Origin: a virus
IMG/VR virus record: IMGVR_UViG_3300032286_001670
Coordinates: 1-22,660 of that record
DNA: 22,660 nucleotides
Reading direction: 5' to 3' (one strand)
The position numbers and the translations under genes were made by a program. Below are positions 300 to 18,833 of the stretch, in pieces. Position 1 is the first letter of the stretch; every line of letters starts with the position of its first letter. The notes below the pieces were generated by a model. The model did not search any database. It worked only from the letters and a program-made list of their open reading frames with translations, and had not been told where the DNA came from.

Positions 300-539
300 A
301 TGACCGAGACGACGAAGGCCCCCGAGCTGGTGCTCGCGACGTGCGGGCACATGGTGGCGCCGACCGAGACGCGTCGGGGCCTGTGCAGGACCTGCTACCG
401 AAAGCTCAGCGGCGAGGGCCTCCCGCTGCCGCCGACGCGGTCGCGGTGGGACGACCACGATGCGCTCGCGGCGTGGGCGCGCGCCCTGCCCGAGCGGACC
501 CGCACGCAACTCCTGGCCGCGCTGATGGAGGTGCGCTGA
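300..539 (+). CDS. Small zinc-finger-like phage protein, function unknown
   Basis: A 79-residue protein, if the ATG at 300 is used; a GTG at 294 in the same frame, overlapping the previous stop, would add two residues. Near the N-terminus there is a C-x-H pair (about residues 15 and 17) and a C-x-x-C pair (about 29 and 32), a spacing that suggests one zinc-binding knuckle. The C-terminal half (WDDHDALAAWARALPERTR...) looks helical. The stop codon TGA at 537-539 is directly followed by the ATG of the small terminase gene, so the two are translationally coupled. Zinc-ribbon proteins of this size often sit just upstream of terminase genes. I do not recognise a named family, and DNA binding is only a guess from the metal-ligand pattern. 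Confidence 0.6.
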   Translation: MTETTKAPELVLATCGHMVAPTETRRGLCRTCYRKLSGEGLPLPPTRSRWDDHDALAAWARALPERTRTQLLAALMEVR

Positions 540-5539: not shown

Positions 5540-5546
5540 TCCTCCC

Positions 5547-5593
5547 CGTCCCGGTCACTGGCACAGCGATGGCTAGCGCTGCCCCTCGGATCG
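5547..5593 (+). promoter_or_regulatory. Candidate phage promoter element, copy 1
   Basis: This lies in the 70-base gap between the minor head protein and the prohead protease. It contains CGTCCCGGTCA (5547-5557), 13 bases, GGCTAGC (5571-5577), and then CGGATCG (5587-5593). The same two blocks with the same 13-base spacing recur at 18386-18416 before another + strand gene. The protease GTG starts 39 bases after the first base of GGCTAGC. Within this copy, TGGCAC-N5-TGGCT at 5559-5574 also resembles a sigma-54 -24/-12 site, but copy 2 lacks the invariant -24 GG. A transcription start 5-15 bases downstream would leave a short leader with weak Shine-Dalgarno. An operator or activator site instead of a core promoter is possible. 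Confidence 0.55.
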
Positions 5594-5609
5594 CCCGCAC
5601 CGTTGGGGC

Positions 5610-6830
5610 GTGCCCGCGCTCCGACTCGACACCGCCGCCCCGCTGCGCCGCGTCGTGGAGACTCCCCAGGGAGGTCTTCGCGTCGAAGCCGCCGTGGCGC
5701 GCGCTGGCGTGCTGCGCTACCGCGACACCGCGGGGCAGGAGTGGGCCGAGCTCGTGCCCGCCGAGGAGCTCGGGGCTGAGCCGTCGCTCGCCACGCTGCG
5801 CGGCGCCACGGTGACCGACCTGCACCCCGAAGGACTCGTGACCGCGGACACCTACCGCGACGTGGCCGTGGGCCATGTGCACGACGACGCCCGCGTCGAG
5901 GGCGGATACCTCGTGGCGACGCTCACCGTGAACGACGCCGCCGAGTGCGCGCGGATTCGCTCGGGCGACCGGCGCGACACCAGCGCGGGCTACGTCTGCG
6001 ACCTCGACGAGACCCCGGGCGTCACCGCCGAGGGCGAGAGCTACCAGCGCGTGCAGCGCAACCGCCGGTACAACCACGTTGGGCTGGGGCCCGAGGGCTG
6101 GGGCCGCGCGGGCAGTGATGTGGGGCTGCGCCTCGATGGCGGGGCCGTCGCAGTGCGGGTCGATGCGCCCGCGGGAGACCCGACGATGAAGAAGACGATC
6201 AAGCTCCGCGGCCGCGAGGTTCACCTCGACATGGCCGAGGGCGAAGACAAGAAGCTCCAGATGGCGCTCGACGAGGACATGGGCGCCGTCGACGAGAAGA
6301 TCCAGAAGAAGGACGCCGAGATGGGCGCCCTGGGCGCGCAGATCGATGGGCTGCAGACCGCGCTCACCGATGCGCTGACGCAGGTCGCAACCCTCGGCGC
6401 GGCGATGAAGGCGATGGAGGCCATGAAGGCCGAGCCCGCCGAGCCCTCCGAGGAGGTGCTCGATGCCGCCCTCGCGGTGCGCGAGACCGTGCGCGCCGAC
6501 GCCGCCAAGGTGCTCGGGGCCGAGGTCTCCCTCACGGGCAAGAAGCCCGCGGAGATCAAGCGCCTCGTGGTCGCCAAGGTGCTGCCCACGGTGAAGCTCG
6601 ACTCGCTGAGCGCCGAGGCCATCGAGGGCATGTACCGCGGCGCGGTCGCGGCCGTGTCCACGGTGACCCGCAACGACGCCCTGGGCGCCGCCAACGCGGC
6701 CGCCAACGGCCGCGACCCGCAGAACCCCGCCGCGGTGAAGACCGACGGCGACGACGACATGGGCGCGAAGCTCCGCGCCCGCACGCACGCCGCCTCGCGC
6801 GCTCCCCTCACCGTCAACGGGAAGGTCTGA
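5610..6830 (+). CDS. Prohead protease (DUF2213-type) fused to a scaffold-like domain
   Basis: 406 residues starting at GTG 5610, just after the promoter-like element. Residues 1-190 match the DUF2213 pattern: a GVLRYRD opening strand, ELVPAEEL, PSLATLRGATVTDLHP, VGHVHDD, TSAGY, YNHVGL and a final GRAGSDVGLRLD. Likely catalytic candidates for this herpes/HK97-type serine protease fold are His72, Ser125 and His156; this assignment is from motif position, not shown. Residues 193-406 are charged and helical, with a coiled-coil-like stretch at about 205-300, and look like a scaffolding or delta domain that is digested during maturation. An internal ATG at 6186 may make this part separately. The cement and major capsid genes follow directly. 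Confidence 0.85.
   Translation: MPALRLDTAAPLRRVVETPQGGLRVEAAVARAGVLRYRDTAGQEWAELVPAEELGAEPSLATLRGATVTDLHPEGLVTADTYRDVAVGHVHDDARVEGGYLVATLTVNDAAECARIRSGDRRDTSAGYVCDLDETPGVTAEGESYQRVQRNRRYNHVGLGPEGWGRAGSDVGLRLDGGAVAVRVDAPAGDPTMKKTIKLRGREVHLDMAEGEDKKLQMALDEDMGAVDEKIQKKDAEMGALGAQIDGLQTALTDALTQVATLGAAMKAMEAMKAEPAEPSEEVLDAALAVRETVRADAAKVLGAEVSLTGKKPAEIKRLVVAKVLPTVKLDSLSAEAIEGMYRGAVAAVSTVTRNDALGAANAAANGRDPQNPAAVKTDGDDDMGAKLRARTHAASRAPLTVNGKV
6173..6188 (+). promoter_or_regulatory. Possible internal ribosome site and start for scaffold-only product
   Basis: GGGAGA at 6173-6178 lies seven bases before an in-frame ATG at 6186-6188 in the protease gene. The ATG is codon 193, exactly where the protease fold ends and the scaffold-like tail (MKKTIKLRGREVHLDMAEG) begins. 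Translation from here would give a 214-residue scaffold protein identical to the protease C-terminus, the arrangement known for lambda C/Nu3. Whether it is used is inference. Confidence 0.4.
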
Positions 6831-6832
6831 CC

Positions 6833-7660
6833 ATGGCTCCTTCGCTCGCCACCTACGACCGGGCGCCCTCGGGCGGCTTCGCCGGTCAGATCGCCCTCCC
6901 CGCCGAGGGCTTCCGCGTCGTCTCGCGCCGCGCCCTGGGCGCTCTGATCGCCGGAGCCCCCGTGCTCCGCGATATCGACGCCGGCACCGAAGATGGTGTC
7001 CAGGCGTACCCCGCTCCCCCTGCGGCCGACGCCGACGGGATCGTCCTGTCGCGCGCCACCGCGGCCACCGCGACCAGCATCACCACCACGGGCCTCGACG
7101 GTGCGCTGGGCCAGGGCGAAATGTACCCGCCCCGCAACGTGACCATCACCGCGACGAGCAACGCGAACTTCGACCTCACGACCTGGATCGTGCGCGGCCT
7201 CGACGAGAACGGCCTGCCGCAGGAAGAGGTCTTCGTGATGCCCGACGCGGGCAACGTCACGCTGACGGGCAACAAGTTCTTTAGCTACGTCATCGAGGTC
7301 TACGTGCCCGCGCAGAGCGGCACCGGCGGCGCGTACACCGTGGGCTTCGGCGCGAAGCTCGGCCCCCTCGACAAGCACTTCGCGGGCGTCGCGCTCTACG
7401 ACGCGACGAAGCCCCCGGGCGCCTACGCCGAAGACGACTCGGTGAGCGTGCTCGAGGAGGGCGCGATCTACGTCCAGAGCGAGACCGCCGTGGACCCCAC
7501 GAAGCCGGTCTACGTGCGGCAGGTGATCTCCGGCAACGAGGTCCGCGGGCACTACCGCGCGACCGTCGACGCCAACGACCTCGCGCAGATCGTCCGTGCG
7601 CGCTGGATCGAGAAGACCACGGGCGCCGGCGTGGCCGGCCTGCGACTCCTGTCGCGCTGA
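6833..7660 (+). CDS. Capsid cement/decoration protein with inserted domain
   Basis: 275 residues; ATG 6833 is preceded by GGGAAGG at the end of the protease gene and lies two bases after its stop. The ends resemble phage structural cement proteins: an N-terminal GGFAGQIALP stretch, and near the C-terminus VYVRQVISGNEVRGHYRATV followed by an ARWI...GAGVAGLRLL ending. A second domain sits in the middle (about residues 99-175), rich in Thr/Val and ending VPAQSGTGGAYTVGFGAK; it reads as a beta-sandwich and is shared with the tail sheath (see 10861-11091). Cement proteins bind the outside of the expanded capsid and stabilise it. Position just before the major capsid gene supports the call. The family assignment is from memory of motif layout, not a search. 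Confidence 0.75.
   Translation: MAPSLATYDRAPSGGFAGQIALPAEGFRVVSRRALGALIAGAPVLRDIDAGTEDGVQAYPAPPAADADGIVLSRATAATATSITTTGLDGALGQGEMYPPRNVTITATSNANFDLTTWIVRGLDENGLPQEEVFVMPDAGNVTLTGNKFFSYVIEVYVPAQSGTGGAYTVGFGAKLGPLDKHFAGVALYDATKPPGAYAEDDSVSVLEEGAIYVQSETAVDPTKPVYVRQVISGNEVRGHYRATVDANDLAQIVRARWIEKTTGAGVAGLRLLSR
7127..7357 (+). repeat. Shared beta-sandwich-like domain, cement-protein copy
   Basis: Codons 99-175 of the cement protein align without gaps to codons 171-247 of the tail sheath. I count 28 identities in 77 positions by hand, including the PAQSG-x-GG-x-x-TVG motif and a G-x-D-x-x-G turn. It is a protein-level duplication; the DNA has diverged. Confidence 0.7.
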
Positions 7661-9764: not shown

Positions 9765-10354
9765 ACCTCGCGACCCTGGAGCCCGGCCTGCTCACCTGGC
9801 TGTCGACCCTCACCGGCACCGCCGCGGCCCTCTGCGTGAAGGCCAACGCCTCGCGCCCGGTGGTGCCCGCGGGCGCCGCGCTGGTGCTCATCCAGTGGGT
9901 GAGCATCCCCCAGGTGGGCCTCGACGCGACGGCGTGGGAATACGACGATGACGCGCCCACCGCGCTCACCGAGCTCACGCCGTCGCTTCATGGCGACCGA
10001 CGGCCGGTGCTCCAGGTCGACGTCGAGGTCGAGGACCAGCGCTCTGGTTACGACGCCTCCGCGATCGCTCAGCGCATCGTCGACCGCTGCCGCGCCCCGA
10101 GCTCCCTGACGGCGCTCGGGGCGCTCAACGTGGCCCTCGCGGGCGTGGCCCCGGTGCGCCGCACGGACTACCCCTTTAACGGGCGCATGACGGCGCGCGC
10201 GACCGTGGAGCTCACGTTCAACGCGGTGAGCCACTACACCGACACCGCGGGGCAGACGGCCACCATCACAAGCGTCCAGATCGGCGCGACGGTGACCGGC
10301 TCCGCGGGGACTGCACTGCCCGACACCGTGGACAGCGGAGGCACCTTCTCATGA
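9761..10354 (+). CDS. Neck/tail terminator-like protein
   Basis: 197 residues from GTG 9761, in a GTGA overlap with the neck gene. The mid-region (VLQVDVEVEDQRSGYDASAI, then IAQRIVDRCRA) and the later NGRMTARATVELTFNAVSHY look like the mixed alpha/beta fold of tail terminator proteins: a helix, long strands and a late strand beginning ATVELTFN. In tailed phages the protein before the sheath gene caps the tail tube and sets the head-tail junction. The last 35 residues are Thr/Gly/Ser-rich. The assignment to a terminator rests mainly on position (last gene before the sheath) and weak pattern similarity. Confidence 0.65.
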   Translation: MNLATLEPGLLTWLSTLTGTAAALCVKANASRPVVPAGAALVLIQWVSIPQVGLDATAWEYDDDAPTALTELTPSLHGDRRPVLQVDVEVEDQRSGYDASAIAQRIVDRCRAPSSLTALGALNVALAGVAPVRRTDYPFNGRMTARATVELTFNAVSHYTDTAGQTATITSVQIGATVTGSAGTALPDTVDSGGTFS

Positions 10355-11997
10355 GCCTGCAAGACATCGTCAGCGTCGCCATCACCCGCGTGTCCAGCGC
10401 GGTCACGCAGCAGGGCTTCTCGACGCCGTGCATCCTCGCGTTCCACACGCGCCGCATGAGCGACCGCGTGCACAGCTACGCGAGCCTCGCCGAGATGGCC
10501 ACCGCGGGCTACACGAGCGACGACACGGCCTACAAGATCGCCAGCGCGCTGTGGTCGCAGCCCAACCCGCCCGCGGCCATCAAGATCGGCCGCCGCGCCA
10601 ACGCGTTCACGAAGAGCGTGCGGCTGACGCCCTCCGCGGCGAACGCCACGGCGTACACCGTCGAGTGTGAGGGGCTGGAGGCCAGCTACACCAGCGACGG
10701 TTCCGCGACGGTCGGGGAGATCTGCACCAACCTCACCGCGGCGATCAACGCCCTCGCCGACGTGGATGCGATCCTCGCCACGAGCGGGACCACGAGCATC
10801 GCGACGCAGACGCTCTCGGGCGCGAGCCTCAACGGCGTGCTGGGCTACCGCGCGCTCTCCCCCTCGCGGCGCATCACGCTGGTGCTCTCGGCGCACGCCG
10901 ATTGGGACGCGACGACCGCGACCATCACCGGCAAGGACGCGGGCGGCAACACCATCACCGACACCGTGGCGATCCCCAACGGCGGCGGCGCGACGGTCGC
11001 CACCGCGAAGCTCTTCGCCCGGGTGACCTCGGTGGCGATCCCGGCGCAGAGCGGAAGCGGGGGCACCTTCACCGTGGGCGTGGCCGCGCCCTGGGCCGCG
11101 ACCGACGACACCACGCACATCACCCTCGCGGCGCCTGCCGGGCTGATCCCCTCGCTGAAGCTCACCGGCGCGGGCGTGCTGGCGCTGGAGGACCGCACCG
11201 CGGACCCGGGCCTCGCCGCCGACCTCACCGCGATCCGCGCCGAGGACGACGACTGGTACTGCGCGCTGCTGGACTCCAACAGCTCCGCGGAGATCCTCGC
11301 CCTCGGCGCGATCATCGAGCCGCTGACGCCGAAGAAGATCCTCGTGGCGCAGAGCGCCGACACCGAGGTGCTCAACGCCGACAGCATCACCGACGTGGCC
11401 TACATCGTCGCCGACCGGGATTACTTCCGCACGCACGTGAGCTTCCACCCGCACATCGCGACGGTGGATTCGTGGATCGCTGCGAGCCTCGTGGGCAGCG
11501 CCCTGGCCTACAGCCCCGGCTCGGTCACCTGGGTGAACCGCGAGCTCGTGGGCATCGGCGACTGGGCACCCACCAGCGCCAGGCGCGCCGCCCTCGTGGC
11601 GAAGAGCAGCGGCTCCATCGAGACCGTTGCGGGCCGCAAGGTCACCTTCGGCGGCAAGGTCGGCGGGGGCGAGTGGCTGGACATCATCCACGGCCTCGAC
11701 TGGCTCCACGCGCGCATCGGGGAGCGCGTCTTCGGGCTCCTCGTGTCCGCGCAGGGCGACAAGATCGGCTTCACCGACAAGGGCATCGCCCGGGTGCACG
11801 CCGAGCTCCGCGCGCAGCTCACCGAGGCGAGCGCGGCCCCCTCGAACCTGCTCGCCACCTGGAGCACCACGGTGCCCACCGCGGCGTCGCTGAGCTCCGG
11901 GCAGCGCGCCACCCGCGTGCTCCCCAACGTCACCTTCAGCGCCACGGTGCAGGGCGCCATCCACGCCGTCAACGTCGCGGGCACGGTCGCGGCCTGA
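10351..11997 (+). CDS. Tail sheath protein (DUF3383-type)
   Basis: 548 residues from ATG 10351, with GGAGG about nine bases upstream and a four-base overlap with the previous gene. The N-terminus (LQDIVSVAITRVSSAVTQQG, then FSTPCILAF) and the later WYCALLDSNSSAEILALGAI, followed by a KKILVAQSADTEV strand, match DUF3383 sheath proteins; the C-terminal domain (RIGERVFGLLVSAQGDKIGF, then TDKGIARVHAELRAQL) is the conserved part that links neighbouring sheath subunits. The sheath contracts to drive the tube through the cell envelope, so this phage has a contractile tail. Residues about 171-247 are an inserted domain shared with the capsid cement protein. The tube gene follows after 20 bases. Confidence 0.88.
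   Translation: MSLQDIVSVAITRVSSAVTQQGFSTPCILAFHTRRMSDRVHSYASLAEMATAGYTSDDTAYKIASALWSQPNPPAAIKIGRRANAFTKSVRLTPSAANATAYTVECEGLEASYTSDGSATVGEICTNLTAAINALADVDAILATSGTTSIATQTLSGASLNGVLGYRALSPSRRITLVLSAHADWDATTATITGKDAGGNTITDTVAIPNGGGATVATAKLFARVTSVAIPAQSGSGGTFTVGVAAPWAATDDTTHITLAAPAGLIPSLKLTGAGVLALEDRTADPGLAADLTAIRAEDDDWYCALLDSNSSAEILALGAIIEPLTPKKILVAQSADTEVLNADSITDVAYIVADRDYFRTHVSFHPHIATVDSWIAASLVGSALAYSPGSVTWVNRELVGIGDWAPTSARRAALVAKSSGSIETVAGRKVTFGGKVGGGEWLDIIHGLDWLHARIGERVFGLLVSAQGDKIGFTDKGIARVHAELRAQLTEASAAPSNLLATWSTTVPTAASLSSGQRATRVLPNVTFSATVQGAIHAVNVAGTVAA
10861..11091 (+). repeat. Shared beta-sandwich-like domain, sheath copy
   Basis: Codons 171-247 of the sheath gene pair without gaps with codons 99-175 of the cement protein. 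The best-preserved stretch is IPAQSGSGGTFTVG, against VPAQSGTGGAYTVG in the cement protein. It probably projects from the sheath surface. Confidence 0.7.
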
Positions 11998-16681: not shown

Positions 16682-17445
16682 CATGGGACCGAACGATTGA
16701 GCCGTCGCAAGAAGACCTGATCCGCGCGCACATTGAGCACGCACTCCACCAGGTGCACACCGCGATGCCCTGCCGCGTGCAGAGCTACGACCCGGCGCTT
16801 CAGGTGGTCGACCTCGTGCCGCTGGTGCGGTGCGCGGTGCACGACCCCGATGGCGGCATCACGCACGAGGATTACCCCGTGCTGCCCTGCGTGCCGGTGG
16901 TTTTCCCGCGGACCGCGGACCACTTCATCGCCTTCGCGATCCAGCCCGGGGACATGGGCGTCGCGCTGTTCTGCGAAGACGCCATCGGGCACTGGCGTGC
17001 CGGAGGGGGCGACGTCACCGACCCGGGCTTTCTCGGGCGGCACCACCTCGGCGCGGGCGTGTTCATCCCGGGGCTGTTCGACCGCAGCCGCAAGCTCACC
17101 AACGCGCCCGTGTTCGCGAACACGCCCGGGTCGCCGCGCCTCGTGATCGGCAGCGACGACACCGCCGGGACGAGGGTGACCTTCAACAACAACGGGTCGC
17201 TCAAGATCACCCAGGGCAGCACCGTGGTGTTCCAACTCGACGCCGACGGGACCACGCACGTCGGCGGCGCTGCCGCGTCGCAGTTCGTAGCCCTCGCGAA
17301 CCTCGTGGACTCGCGGCTCTCGACGATCCGCACGTGGCTCAACACGCACACGCACCCGACCGCAGCGACGGGCCCCGTCAGCGCGCCCTCCACGCCCCTC
17401 GGCGCCCTCGACAGCGTGGCCGCGACGAAGGCCAAGGCTACCTGA
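16678..17445 (+). CDS. Baseplate spike / assembly protein (gp138- or gpV-like)
   Basis: 255 residues from ATG 16678, overlapping the hub stop by four bases. The N-terminal region (HTAMPCRVQSYDPALQVVDL, then VPLVRCAV) and YPVLPCVPVVFPRTADHFIA, GDMGVALFCED form the OB-fold type domain found in spike proteins such as gp138 and gpV. Residues about 155-205 (RVTFNNNGSLKITQGSTVVF, QLDADGTTHVGG) suggest a trimeric beta-helix shaft, and HTHTHPT near the C-terminus offers histidines that may bind metal at the tip region. It pierces the outer membrane when the sheath contracts. Its last seven bases overlap the end of the convergent lipoprotein gene. Trimer and metal binding are inferred from family knowledge. 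Confidence 0.8.
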   Translation: MTWDRTIEPSQEDLIRAHIEHALHQVHTAMPCRVQSYDPALQVVDLVPLVRCAVHDPDGGITHEDYPVLPCVPVVFPRTADHFIAFAIQPGDMGVALFCEDAIGHWRAGGGDVTDPGFLGRHHLGAGVFIPGLFDRSRKLTNAPVFANTPGSPRLVIGSDDTAGTRVTFNNNGSLKITQGSTVVFQLDADGTTHVGGAAASQFVALANLVDSRLSTIRTWLNTHTHPTAATGPVSAPSTPLGALDSVAATKAKAT

Positions 17446-18355
17446 CCTCGCAGCCCAGCAACCACACGTCGCCGCGCTCGGGGCTCACCGTGCGACCTGG
17501 CACCCCGGTCACCCCGCCCACGCTGGGTGTCGGCGGCGCCGAGAAGCTCACCCGGAACGACTGCCGCCCGCCGACCTCGGTGCCGGCCACCACCTCGATG
17601 TTGCGGCCCTGGGTGGCACCGCCCCCGACGACGGCCACGCTCGCCCCCGCGTTGCTGCGGTAGTCCGGGACCAGGCCGGTGATCTGCGACCCGGCGCGGA
17701 GGTTGAAGTTCAGCCGCGAGCCCGTGCGGGTGCATGTGGCCCCCGTGACCGCGGTGATGGGCTCGGCGCCGCAGGGCCCGCCATCCTGCCCCGTGCACGT
17801 CTCGAAGAACAACACCCGCACCTCGAGGGCCCCCGGCGGCGGGTCGAGCGGGTAGACCTGCGACCCGGCGTCGACCGGCGGCGCGTCCACCACGTCGGGG
17901 ACTGCGACGGCAACGTCGGGCGCCTCCCCGGCATCTGGCGGTGCGCCCGCATCGAGCGAAGGGCACCGGCAGGCGCTCCACCCGTCGGCGGCGCACCGCC
18001 GCTCGCCCAGGGTGCCAGGGCACGCGCACGGCTCGCTTTCGCCAACGGTGCACCCCGCGTCGACGACGTCGCGCACCATGAGCACGTCGGGAGCGTCGCG
18101 CGGGGCGGGTCGATCGGCCGTCACCGCGGCGTCGGCCATCGGGCAGGTGCACGGTCCAAGCGACCGCCCGTCCGCGGCGCAGACCTGGGCACCAGGCGCC
18201 CCGCCCACGCACGCACACGCCACCTGTGCGCCGGGGATGCATAGGGATGCCCCGTCCGGCCCCGCGGCGGCGTCTTCCGGCGGGGTGGACGGGCCGGTGT
18301 ACCGCGCGGAGCAGCCGAGGGCGAGGAGGGCCAGAACGGGCAACCAGGGGCGCAT
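17438..18355 (-). CDS. Cysteine-rich lipoprotein, probable phage cargo gene
   Basis: The only convincing minus-strand gene. The start is set by the ATG at 18355 because the protein then opens with a classic signal peptide MRPWLPVLALLALGC, lipobox L-A-L-G-C with Cys15 as the lipidation site; the longer open frame upstream is discarded. It has 305 residues. Two repeats follow, at about 39-71 and 102-131, with the pattern C-x7-C-x-C-x(8-9)-C-x(7-9)-C-x-C, separated and followed by Asp/Ala/Pro-rich linkers. The C-terminal domain (about 172-305) looks beta-rich with further cysteines and is unknown to me. Similar repeat-plus-linker lipoproteins are common in Myxococcota. It is inverted between spike and wedge genes, so it is likely transcribed separately, for instance from a prophage. 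A role in surface exclusion or host surface change is speculation. Confidence 0.78.
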   Translation of the reverse strand: MRPWLPVLALLALGCSARYTGPSTPPEDAAAGPDGASLCIPGAQVACACVGGAPGAQVCAADGRSLGPCTCPMADAAVTADRPAPRDAPDVLMVRDVVDAGCTVGESEPCACPGTLGERRCAADGWSACRCPSLDAGAPPDAGEAPDVAVAVPDVVDAPPVDAGSQVYPLDPPPGALEVRVLFFETCTGQDGGPCGAEPITAVTGATCTRTGSRLNFNLRAGSQITGLVPDYRSNAGASVAVVGGGATQGRNIEVVAGTEVGGRQSFRVSFSAPPTPSVGGVTGVPGRTVSPERGDVWLLGCEVR

Positions 18356-18385
18356 GCGGTGACCATACGTCGGCCGCGGTCGCCT

Positions 18386-18431
18386 CGTCCCGGTCAGTGT
18401 CGCAGCCTGGGCTAGCCCCTCGCACGGATCG
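18386..18431 (+). promoter_or_regulatory. Candidate phage promoter element, copy 2
   Basis: CGTCCCGGTCA at 18386-18396, 13 bases, GGCTAGC at 18410-18416, then CGGATCG at 18425-18431. It lies in the 94-base divergent gap between the lipoprotein and the wedge gene, 40 bases before the wedge GTG measured from GGCTAGC (39 in copy 1). It would restart transcription downstream of the inverted lipoprotein gene. The remaining gap bases hold nothing else that I recognise; a promoter for the lipoprotein must also lie here but is not visible. Confidence 0.55.
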
Positions 18432-18449
18432 GCACGCACGCTGGGCCGC

Positions 18450-18833
18450 GTGCGTGACCTTGCCCTCGACCCATCAACCGGCGATCTGAAGCTCACCCGC
18501 GGGTCGGACGGCCTGCGGCGTGCGGAGCTCACCTCGGGCGCCGACGCCGTGCGGCAGAAGCTGCACTTGCGCCTCGGGCTCGTGGCCGGGGAGTACCCCT
18601 TTGACCTCGGGGTGGGCATCCCCTTGTTCACCCAGGTGCTCGGGAAGGCCAGTGGGTTCGCCGTGGCCGAGGGCGTCTACCGGCGCGCAGTGTCGACCTG
18701 CCCCGGCGTGCGCAGCGTCGAGTCGTTCCGCTTCTCGGTGAGCGCCGCCCGCCGTGCCTCGGTGAGCTTCACCGTCACGCCCGTTGAGGGCGCGGCCATC
18801 ACCGTCACCGACTTCGCCGCGGGGGCCGCGTGA
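18450..18833 (+). CDS. Baseplate wedge protein, gp25/W-like
   Basis: 127 residues from GTG 18450, placed just after the second promoter-like element. The sequence contains ELTSGADAVRQKLHLRLGLV followed by AGEYPFDLGVGIPLFTQVLG, the T4 gp25 / P2 W pattern: a helix, then a G-E-(Y/W)-x-x-D-x-x-x-G-(I/V)-P segment. The C-terminal strands (CPGVRSVESFRFSVSA, RRASVSFTVTPVEG) complete the small domain. The wedge protein contacts the sheath and triggers contraction. The next gene begins in a four-base GTGA overlap. The Shine-Dalgarno is weak, as for the other gene behind the same element. Confidence 0.85.
   Translation: MRDLALDPSTGDLKLTRGSDGLRRAELTSGADAVRQKLHLRLGLVAGEYPFDLGVGIPLFTQVLGKASGFAVAEGVYRRAVSTCPGVRSVESFRFSVSAARRASVSFTVTPVEGAAITVTDFAAGAA

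Follow-up and report, generated by a model that had tools for sequence, protein, structure and literature searches.

Putative late promoters paired before the protease and wedge genes of a high-GC contractile-tailed phage and its relatives

Two intergenic elements in a viral DNA stretch of 22,660 bases (the window, G000, an entire IMG/VR virus record with 72% GC) are very probably phage late promoters, judging from relatives in which the core recurs at the two corresponding gene boundaries, each genome having its own paired upstream box. The reading as late promoter or activator site made in the original prediction is supported in this way. The position of the elements, their core with its invariant spacing, the lack of a Shine-Dalgarno sequence and the paired, lineage-specific upstream box were all determined by sequence comparison. 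The window contains a structural block of contractile-tail type in which genes for terminase, an SPP1-gp7/MuF-like head protein, a DUF2213-type protease, capsid, neck, sheath and tube are followed by those for tape measure, spike region, wedge, baseplate and fibre. The first element (site 1) occupies the 70-base gap between the end of the gp7-like gene (5539) and the start of the protease gene (5610), and the second (site 2) lies in the gap that separates the wedge gene, starting at 18450, from a lipoprotein-like gene of the other strand (17438-18355).

Exact copies of the repeat CGTCCCGGTCA-N13-GGCTAGC were found at 5547-5577 and 18386-18416. The boxes are 13 bases apart in both, and 7 of these 13 bases are common to the two. 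In the window CGTCCCGGTCA starts only at 5547 and 18386, and GGCTAGC is unique to 5571 and 18410, as had been noticed by eye. A scan of both strands of the 22,660 bases allowing up to three mismatches returned only the two known copies, and in 100 shuffles the bipartite pattern was matched 0.05 times on average, never twice in the same shuffle. The two intergenic regions of the window match at 25 of 31 positions, compared with a maximum of 23 over 2000 shuffles. Copies scattered inside genes, which would speak against a promoter, were looked for in the window and none was found, both copies being intergenic. The distances of 39 and 40 bases to the start codon given in the original prediction count from the first base of GGCTAGC (5571 to 5610 and 18410 to 18450). 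CGGATCG does occur at a similar offset in both copies, although it falls inside a 19-base stretch that is not conserved in relatives. Copy 1 heads a late group as supposed, but the first gene of this group encodes the DUF2213 head protease and is not the capsid gene itself.

Table 1. Coordinates of the two elements and of the associated genes in the window.
Feature	Position	Strand	Remarks
Site 1, upstream box CGTCCCGGTCA	5547..5557	+	About -63 to -53 if +1 is 5610; putative activator site
Site 1, stretch from upstream box to GGCTAGC	5558..5570	+	TGGCA near the position of GCGTGCCA in relatives
Site 1, -35-like box CTAGC	5573..5577	+	Family consensus [CG]TNG[CA]
Site 1, -10-like box CACCGT	5598..5603	+	A-11 and T-7 in 21/21 family sites
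Site 2, upstream box CGTCCCGGTCA	18386..18396	+	
Site 2, stretch from upstream box to GGCTAGC	18397..18409	+	
Site 2, -35-like box CTAGC	18412..18416	+	
Site 2, -10-like box CACGCT	18437..18442	+	
DUF2213-type head maturation protease, first gene of late group 1	5610..6830	+	GTG at putative +1, no Shine-Dalgarno
gp25/Mu gp46-like baseplate wedge subunit, opening late group 2	18450..18833	+	GTG at putative +2
Lipoprotein-like gene between both late groups	17438..18355	-	Site 2 in divergent gap
Candidate trans-acting late activator, 79-aa Zn-ribbon-like protein before terminase	300..539	+	Hypothetical role

Other features of the window were recorded in the course of the analysis. The tetranucleotide CTAG is strongly avoided, with 3 occurrences against about 57 predicted by base composition, two of the three being inside the putative promoters, and it is also rare in the relative G001 (6 versus 68). 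The product of 17438-18355, on the minus strand, is an Asp/Ala/Cys-rich lipoprotein-like protein (MRPWLPVLALLALGCSARYTGPS...) whose gene is inserted against the late strand in the interval between spike and wedge. The cargo of this interval differs among relatives: G001 and G008 encode other lipoproteins, G017c has a PIN-domain gene there and G088 has no inserted gene. A domain of about 115 residues is common to the gene following the protease (6833-7660) and to the tail sheath (10351-11997), with about 35% identity and E values of about 1e-14 to 1e-16 in relatives.

The exact pattern was also found in seven viral contigs, which are fragments of close relatives (mostly 94-98% identity in the site-flanking proteins), and each fragment has its copy at the same gene boundary as the window. 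At site 2 of these close relatives, the bases just left of the element have changed, and the element and the bases up to the start codon are unchanged. Syntenic distant phages were found with terminase and protease profiles, and in these relatives, with about 30-60% protein identity, the element precedes the DUF2213 protease and the gp25-like wedge genes. Both boundaries are occupied in G001, G008-G010, G017c and G088, and the wedge boundary in L101/103, L108, L112, L115, L117, L123 and L126. In G001 the protease gene is preceded by GCGTCCCCTCGATCGCGTGCCACCGTGCTCTAGC and the wedge gene by GCGTCCCCCCGATCACGTGCCACCGTACTCTAGC, and this element is the best same-strand 32-base repeat of the whole contig. 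G008, G009 and G010 have exactly two copies each of a similar element, about 12.5 kb apart and at the same boundaries, and the two boundaries of G017c both carry CCGCCCCCGCCAGATCCGCCCCCCTCGCATCTAGC, identical across 35 bases; this 41.4 kb phage contig, binned in a bacterial MAG, is circular and bears a terminal repeat of 101 bases. In each of the five genomes tested, the paired intergenic regions outmatched all 2000 shuffles.

Alignment of the sites, anchored on CTAGC, revealed a second conserved box, GCAC[CG]NT, exactly 19 bases downstream of CTAGC, with the start codon 37-39 bases from CTAGC. The family core reads [CG]TNG[CA]-N19-[GC]CAC[CG]NT-N6-8-start codon in 21 sites of about 14 lineages, several of the compared contigs being fragments and some counts including related lineages separately, and the 19-base gap is constant across the 21 sites. 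With +1 defined as base 37 after the first C of CTAGC, positions G-50, T-36, G-34, C-12, A-11, C-10 and T-7 are invariant in all of them, and the start codon is at +1 in 17 sites, at +2 in two and at +3 in two. When gaps of 13 to 25 bases were scanned, only the 19-base gap was enriched (15 matches forward and 1 reverse), other gaps giving 1-5 forward matches. The strict pattern [CG]T[AG]GC-N19-[GC]CAC[CG]NT-N6-8-RTG occurs exactly twice on the plus strand and never on the minus strand in each of the six long contigs (the window, G001, G008, G010, G017c and G088), with 0.00-0.06 matches in shuffles. The elements of these six contigs are repeated, intergenic, in the same orientation and placed before structural operons, as would be expected of phage late promoters. 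No Shine-Dalgarno sequence is present at any of the 12 late starts checked, and several other starts in the same genomes carry one. CACSNT was found 12-14 bases before the start codon in 12/12 late starts and in none of the other automated gene starts listed, the gene calls beyond the structural block having been made automatically by codon-position GC. The wedge proteins have conserved N-termini (MR-x-[LF]ALD), which supports the assigned start codons.

A scan of viral contigs with the core pattern only revealed a new lineage (L090/G088), in which the core precedes a protease gene whose product is 44% identical to that of the window. Its predicted partner before the wedge gene was present as the sole other match in the contig, and both sites have CTGACCCACCTCGCGAGCCAG in common, which was absent from the search pattern. 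A baseplate-J profile scan, which is blind to the motif, yielded 51 loci. Among these loci, the high-GC lineages whose wedge gene is preceded by an intergenic gap (L101/103/127, L108, L112, L115, L117/121, L123 and L126) have CAC[CG]NT 12 bases before the start codon and STNG[CA] exactly 19 bases upstream of the first letter pair of the CAC[CG]NT box. L117 and L123 match the strict pattern, and the other loci need letters 3 and 5 of the first box relaxed; the -35 consensus was loosened after seeing L101, L108, L112, L115 and L126, but the -10 box and the spacing were not. In the contig of L115 (G094), the region upstream of the protease gene contains TTGCGTGCCA-N7-CTTGC-N19-GCACCCT, as predicted, and the CTTGC variant is common to both its protease and wedge sites. 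The core was not found in those more distant baseplate-J loci whose wedge gene abuts the preceding gene, nor in the more distant relatives G013 and G014 (complete or long genomes, about 64-65% GC). Pattern matches in L091-L093, L078, L081, L086 and L088 were judged to be chance from their context.

Some relatives showed additional particularities. G014 and L037 have a GTGCGTAGACCTTTACGCAC-like dyad before the protease gene in place of the core, and in the lower-GC relatives L036 (9930-9990) and L037 (4347-4366) this dyad, or a near version of it, is followed by TGCTA shortly before the protease start; the dyad is possibly the own late activator site of these phages. A scan of bacterial genome contigs with the sheath, aimed at the host, gave no match, and a terminase scan of the same kind of contigs retrieved one close contig, the circular phage genome in the proteobacterium MAG; no further copy was found in 71 genomes of the class of this MAG. 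The contig concerned, G017:C130 (L042/L072-L074), is assigned to an 'uncultured proteobacterium' MAG and represents a complete phage genome, circular and with a tyrosine integrase, rather than a piece of chromosome. Ahead of a small inserted gene it has a third copy (L042:13570-13604) with the upstream box and CTAGC, which has no proper -10 box and no start codon at +1 and is read as a promoter that has decayed or been borrowed. Its MuF/gp7 head protein (L042:11602-13571) has PF04233 in the middle and extends far beyond it at the C-terminus; with the small separate gene that comes next, this is the layout of a MuF polymorphic toxin and an immunity gene. An extra intact promoter-like element is located after the large terminase gene in L016 (1823-1862), with an upstream box common to the protease promoter of L032; both are probably the same phage.

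The bipartite anatomy first proposed has to be modified, because GGCTAGC is indeed part of the element but corresponds to a -35-like box, and the CAC[CG]NT box 19 bases further on had been overlooked. The fixed 19-base gap, the invariant CAC..T, a start codon close to +1 and late starts without a Shine-Dalgarno sequence argue that GGCTAGC is -35-like and not -10. Recognition of sigma-70-type -10 boxes rests chiefly on A-11 and T-7, and T-36 and G-34 correspond to the TTG of the -35 box. In comparison with the sigma-70 -10 box (TANNNT), A-11 and T-7 are present in 21/21 sites, and so is C at -12; in comparison with TTGACA, the T and G of TTG are invariant, the second T occurs in 5/21 and TTGA in L101. 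If the -35 hexamer is taken as TNGCNN, the spacer is 18 bases (16-18 in the sigma-70 reference). A standard sigma-70 reading is weak because position -12 has C instead of T and the -35-like box keeps only the T and G of TTGACA. RNA polymerase holoenzyme would read the -35-like [CG]TNG[CA] (CTAGC in the window) and, 19 bases on, the -10-like CAC[CG]NT (CACCGT and CACGCT). Transcription would probably begin on the start codon or no more than 2 bases from it, so that the protease-to-spike and wedge-to-fibre mRNAs are predicted to be leaderless, a feature that we consider probable. In promoters described for leaderless genes, TANNNT stands shortly before the start codon, at about -12 (PMC3898074, PMC12340547). 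The elements resemble these in a -10 box ending 6-8 bases before the start, in A-11 and T-7, in the lack of a Shine-Dalgarno sequence and in GTG/ATG starts, but they have C and not T at -12 and, in addition, both a fixed -35-like box and an upstream box that is conserved.

As a sigma-70 promoter the core would be poor, and binding of a phage protein to the upstream box (about -63 to -45) is probably required. Over the 30 bases left of CTAGC, 22-30 are identical within a genome, versus 6-19 between lineages, and the 19-base spacer has no consistent within-genome excess of identity. Thus, the core is clade-wide and the upstream box is set per phage; being alike within a genome and unlike between genomes, this box fits what is expected of a phage-specific activator site. 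It is not purely phage-specific, because a degenerate GCGTGCCA-N7 at the same register is partly common to several lineages (it was seen in many), the window lineage being among the most diverged. The simplest reading is that the upstream box may serve an activator that binds immediately ahead of -35, as in the late promoters of Mu or P2, and action of a phage activator there is the reading towards which we lean. The binding site would shift from lineage to lineage, with both copies of a genome shifting together. Promoter activity, the leaderless start and activator dependence are what we infer from these comparisons, and the explanation as a whole (core, leaderless start and activator at the upstream box) appears likely.

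An alternative with a modest chance of being right is that the sigma factor reading the late promoters is phage-encoded, or an unusual one of the host, and also contacts the upstream box, without a separate activator. The rigid spacing and the departure of CACSNT and of the -35-like box from the common sigma-70 consensus would fit such a factor. Among the scanned genes of the complete 41 kb G017c, for which gene calls were non-exhaustive, no sigma factor or RNA polymerase gene was detected by Pfam, and the core is shared across lineages whereas the upstream box varies, which indicates two recognisers. It has also been considered that CTAGC is itself the -10 box, with transcription starting about 7 bases later and CACSNT being part of a short leader that aids translation. 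This geometry is implied when GGCTAGC is taken as the downstream half of the promoter, and TAGCNN, with its first T and A, is loosely -10-like. Nevertheless, the 19-base gap is constant while the start-codon distance varies (37-39), the late starts lack a Shine-Dalgarno sequence, and the middle base of CTNGC varies (CTTGC, GTTGA, CTCGC) with CAC..T invariant. A search for RNA leader structure gave nothing beyond chance (z-scores of 1.42, 0.63, -0.03 and -0.42), and this second possibility is judged improbable. Inserted genes adjoin the elements (the lipoprotein gene of the window, and the PIN-domain gene and extra copy of G017c), as would be the case if the repeats were module-boundary linkers kept for recombination or gene exchange and not for transcription; this is very unlikely, considering that G088, without the lipoprotein-like gene or any other inserted gene at site 2, still has both copies, and that neither the tight start-codon distance nor the constant forward orientation would be expected of linkers. 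Sigma-54 (-24/-12) promoters with an enhancer-binding protein can practically be dismissed, although copy 1 alone matches 10 of 12 consensus positions (TGGCAC-N5-TGGCT), because the GG-N10-GC spacing is not kept in copy 2, which reads TGTCGC without the GG, as the original prediction had already pointed out, or in the relatives, where the G-C pairs are 12 and not 10 bases apart (e.g. GTGCCACCTGTCTCTAGC; N12 in G001 and G008), and the invariant CACSNT would be left unexplained.

As late promoters with an upstream activator site, the elements would work like the Mu-C or P2-Ogr late promoters, without being assigned to either group. In Mu, the head protease gene I and the baseplate genes each follow a late promoter of their own, and P2 late promoters share an upstream site at about -55. 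The Mu late promoters Plys, PI, PP and Pmom are activated by C, and the likeness to the elements lies in the existence of several late promoters with poor -10/-35 boxes and an activator site beside or overlapping -35 (PMC4461284). In contrast, the description of Mu consulted here mentions no CACSNT -10 box, no rigid spacing and no start codon at +1 (PMC4461284). No match to a Mor/C-family activator was found among the scanned G017c genes, the window itself covering only a fragment of its phage. The P2 late promoters contain TGT-N12-ACA and are activated by the Zn-finger protein Ogr (PMC3931495). They are similar to the present elements in being separate late promoters with a common upstream site, and a small Zn-binding protein is a plausible activator here as well. 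Inspection of 5540-5580 and 18380-18420 revealed no TGT-N12-ACA, and the candidate, in the window (300-536) as in relatives, differs from Ogr in Cys spacing (CX2C...CX2C versus CX2CX22CX4C) and gave no Ogr_Delta match.

This candidate belongs to a family of Zn-ribbon-like proteins of 74-90 aa that have CX2C...CX2C and whose C-terminus is helical; their genes immediately precede that of the small terminase. The gene is present in the six lineages in which the region is available (the window, G001, G008, L034, G017c and G088), and the G088 protein, outside the training set, was recovered with E = 1.7e-16. G013, G014, L037 and L038, all of them without the core, yielded no convincing match. The co-occurrence of the Zn-ribbon gene and the core could be simple descent. 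The window protein lacks the second Cys, comparison with Pfam and PHROG gave no convincing match, and a mediocre AlphaFold model (pLDDT 70) had no Foldseek match in PDB. That the product of 300-539 is the activator is a guess, and a doubtful one. A GcrA-like double-HTH gene of G017c (35349-35687) was rejected as activator, no homologue having been found in the other compared genomes. We tentatively consider, as a possibility with less than even chances, that the elements represent an undescribed class of late promoters, TNG-N20/21-CACSNT with the start codon at +1, driving leaderless late operons throughout a clade of uncultured high-GC temperate phages, in which the activator would be a small phage Zn-ribbon protein unlike Ogr or C whose specificity would have been rewired between lineages together with both sites.

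Knowledge of these phages comes only from metagenomes and a small number of bacterial genomes. The comparison presents the element as a putative promoter with defined boxes and an inferred start site, which marks the late gene groups in poorly annotated fragments. The approximately 14 natural variants, in which the site of the regulator changes in step at two loci, would be useful for studying regulator-site co-evolution, and the results suggest that the structural operons of this clade are translated from leaderless mRNAs.
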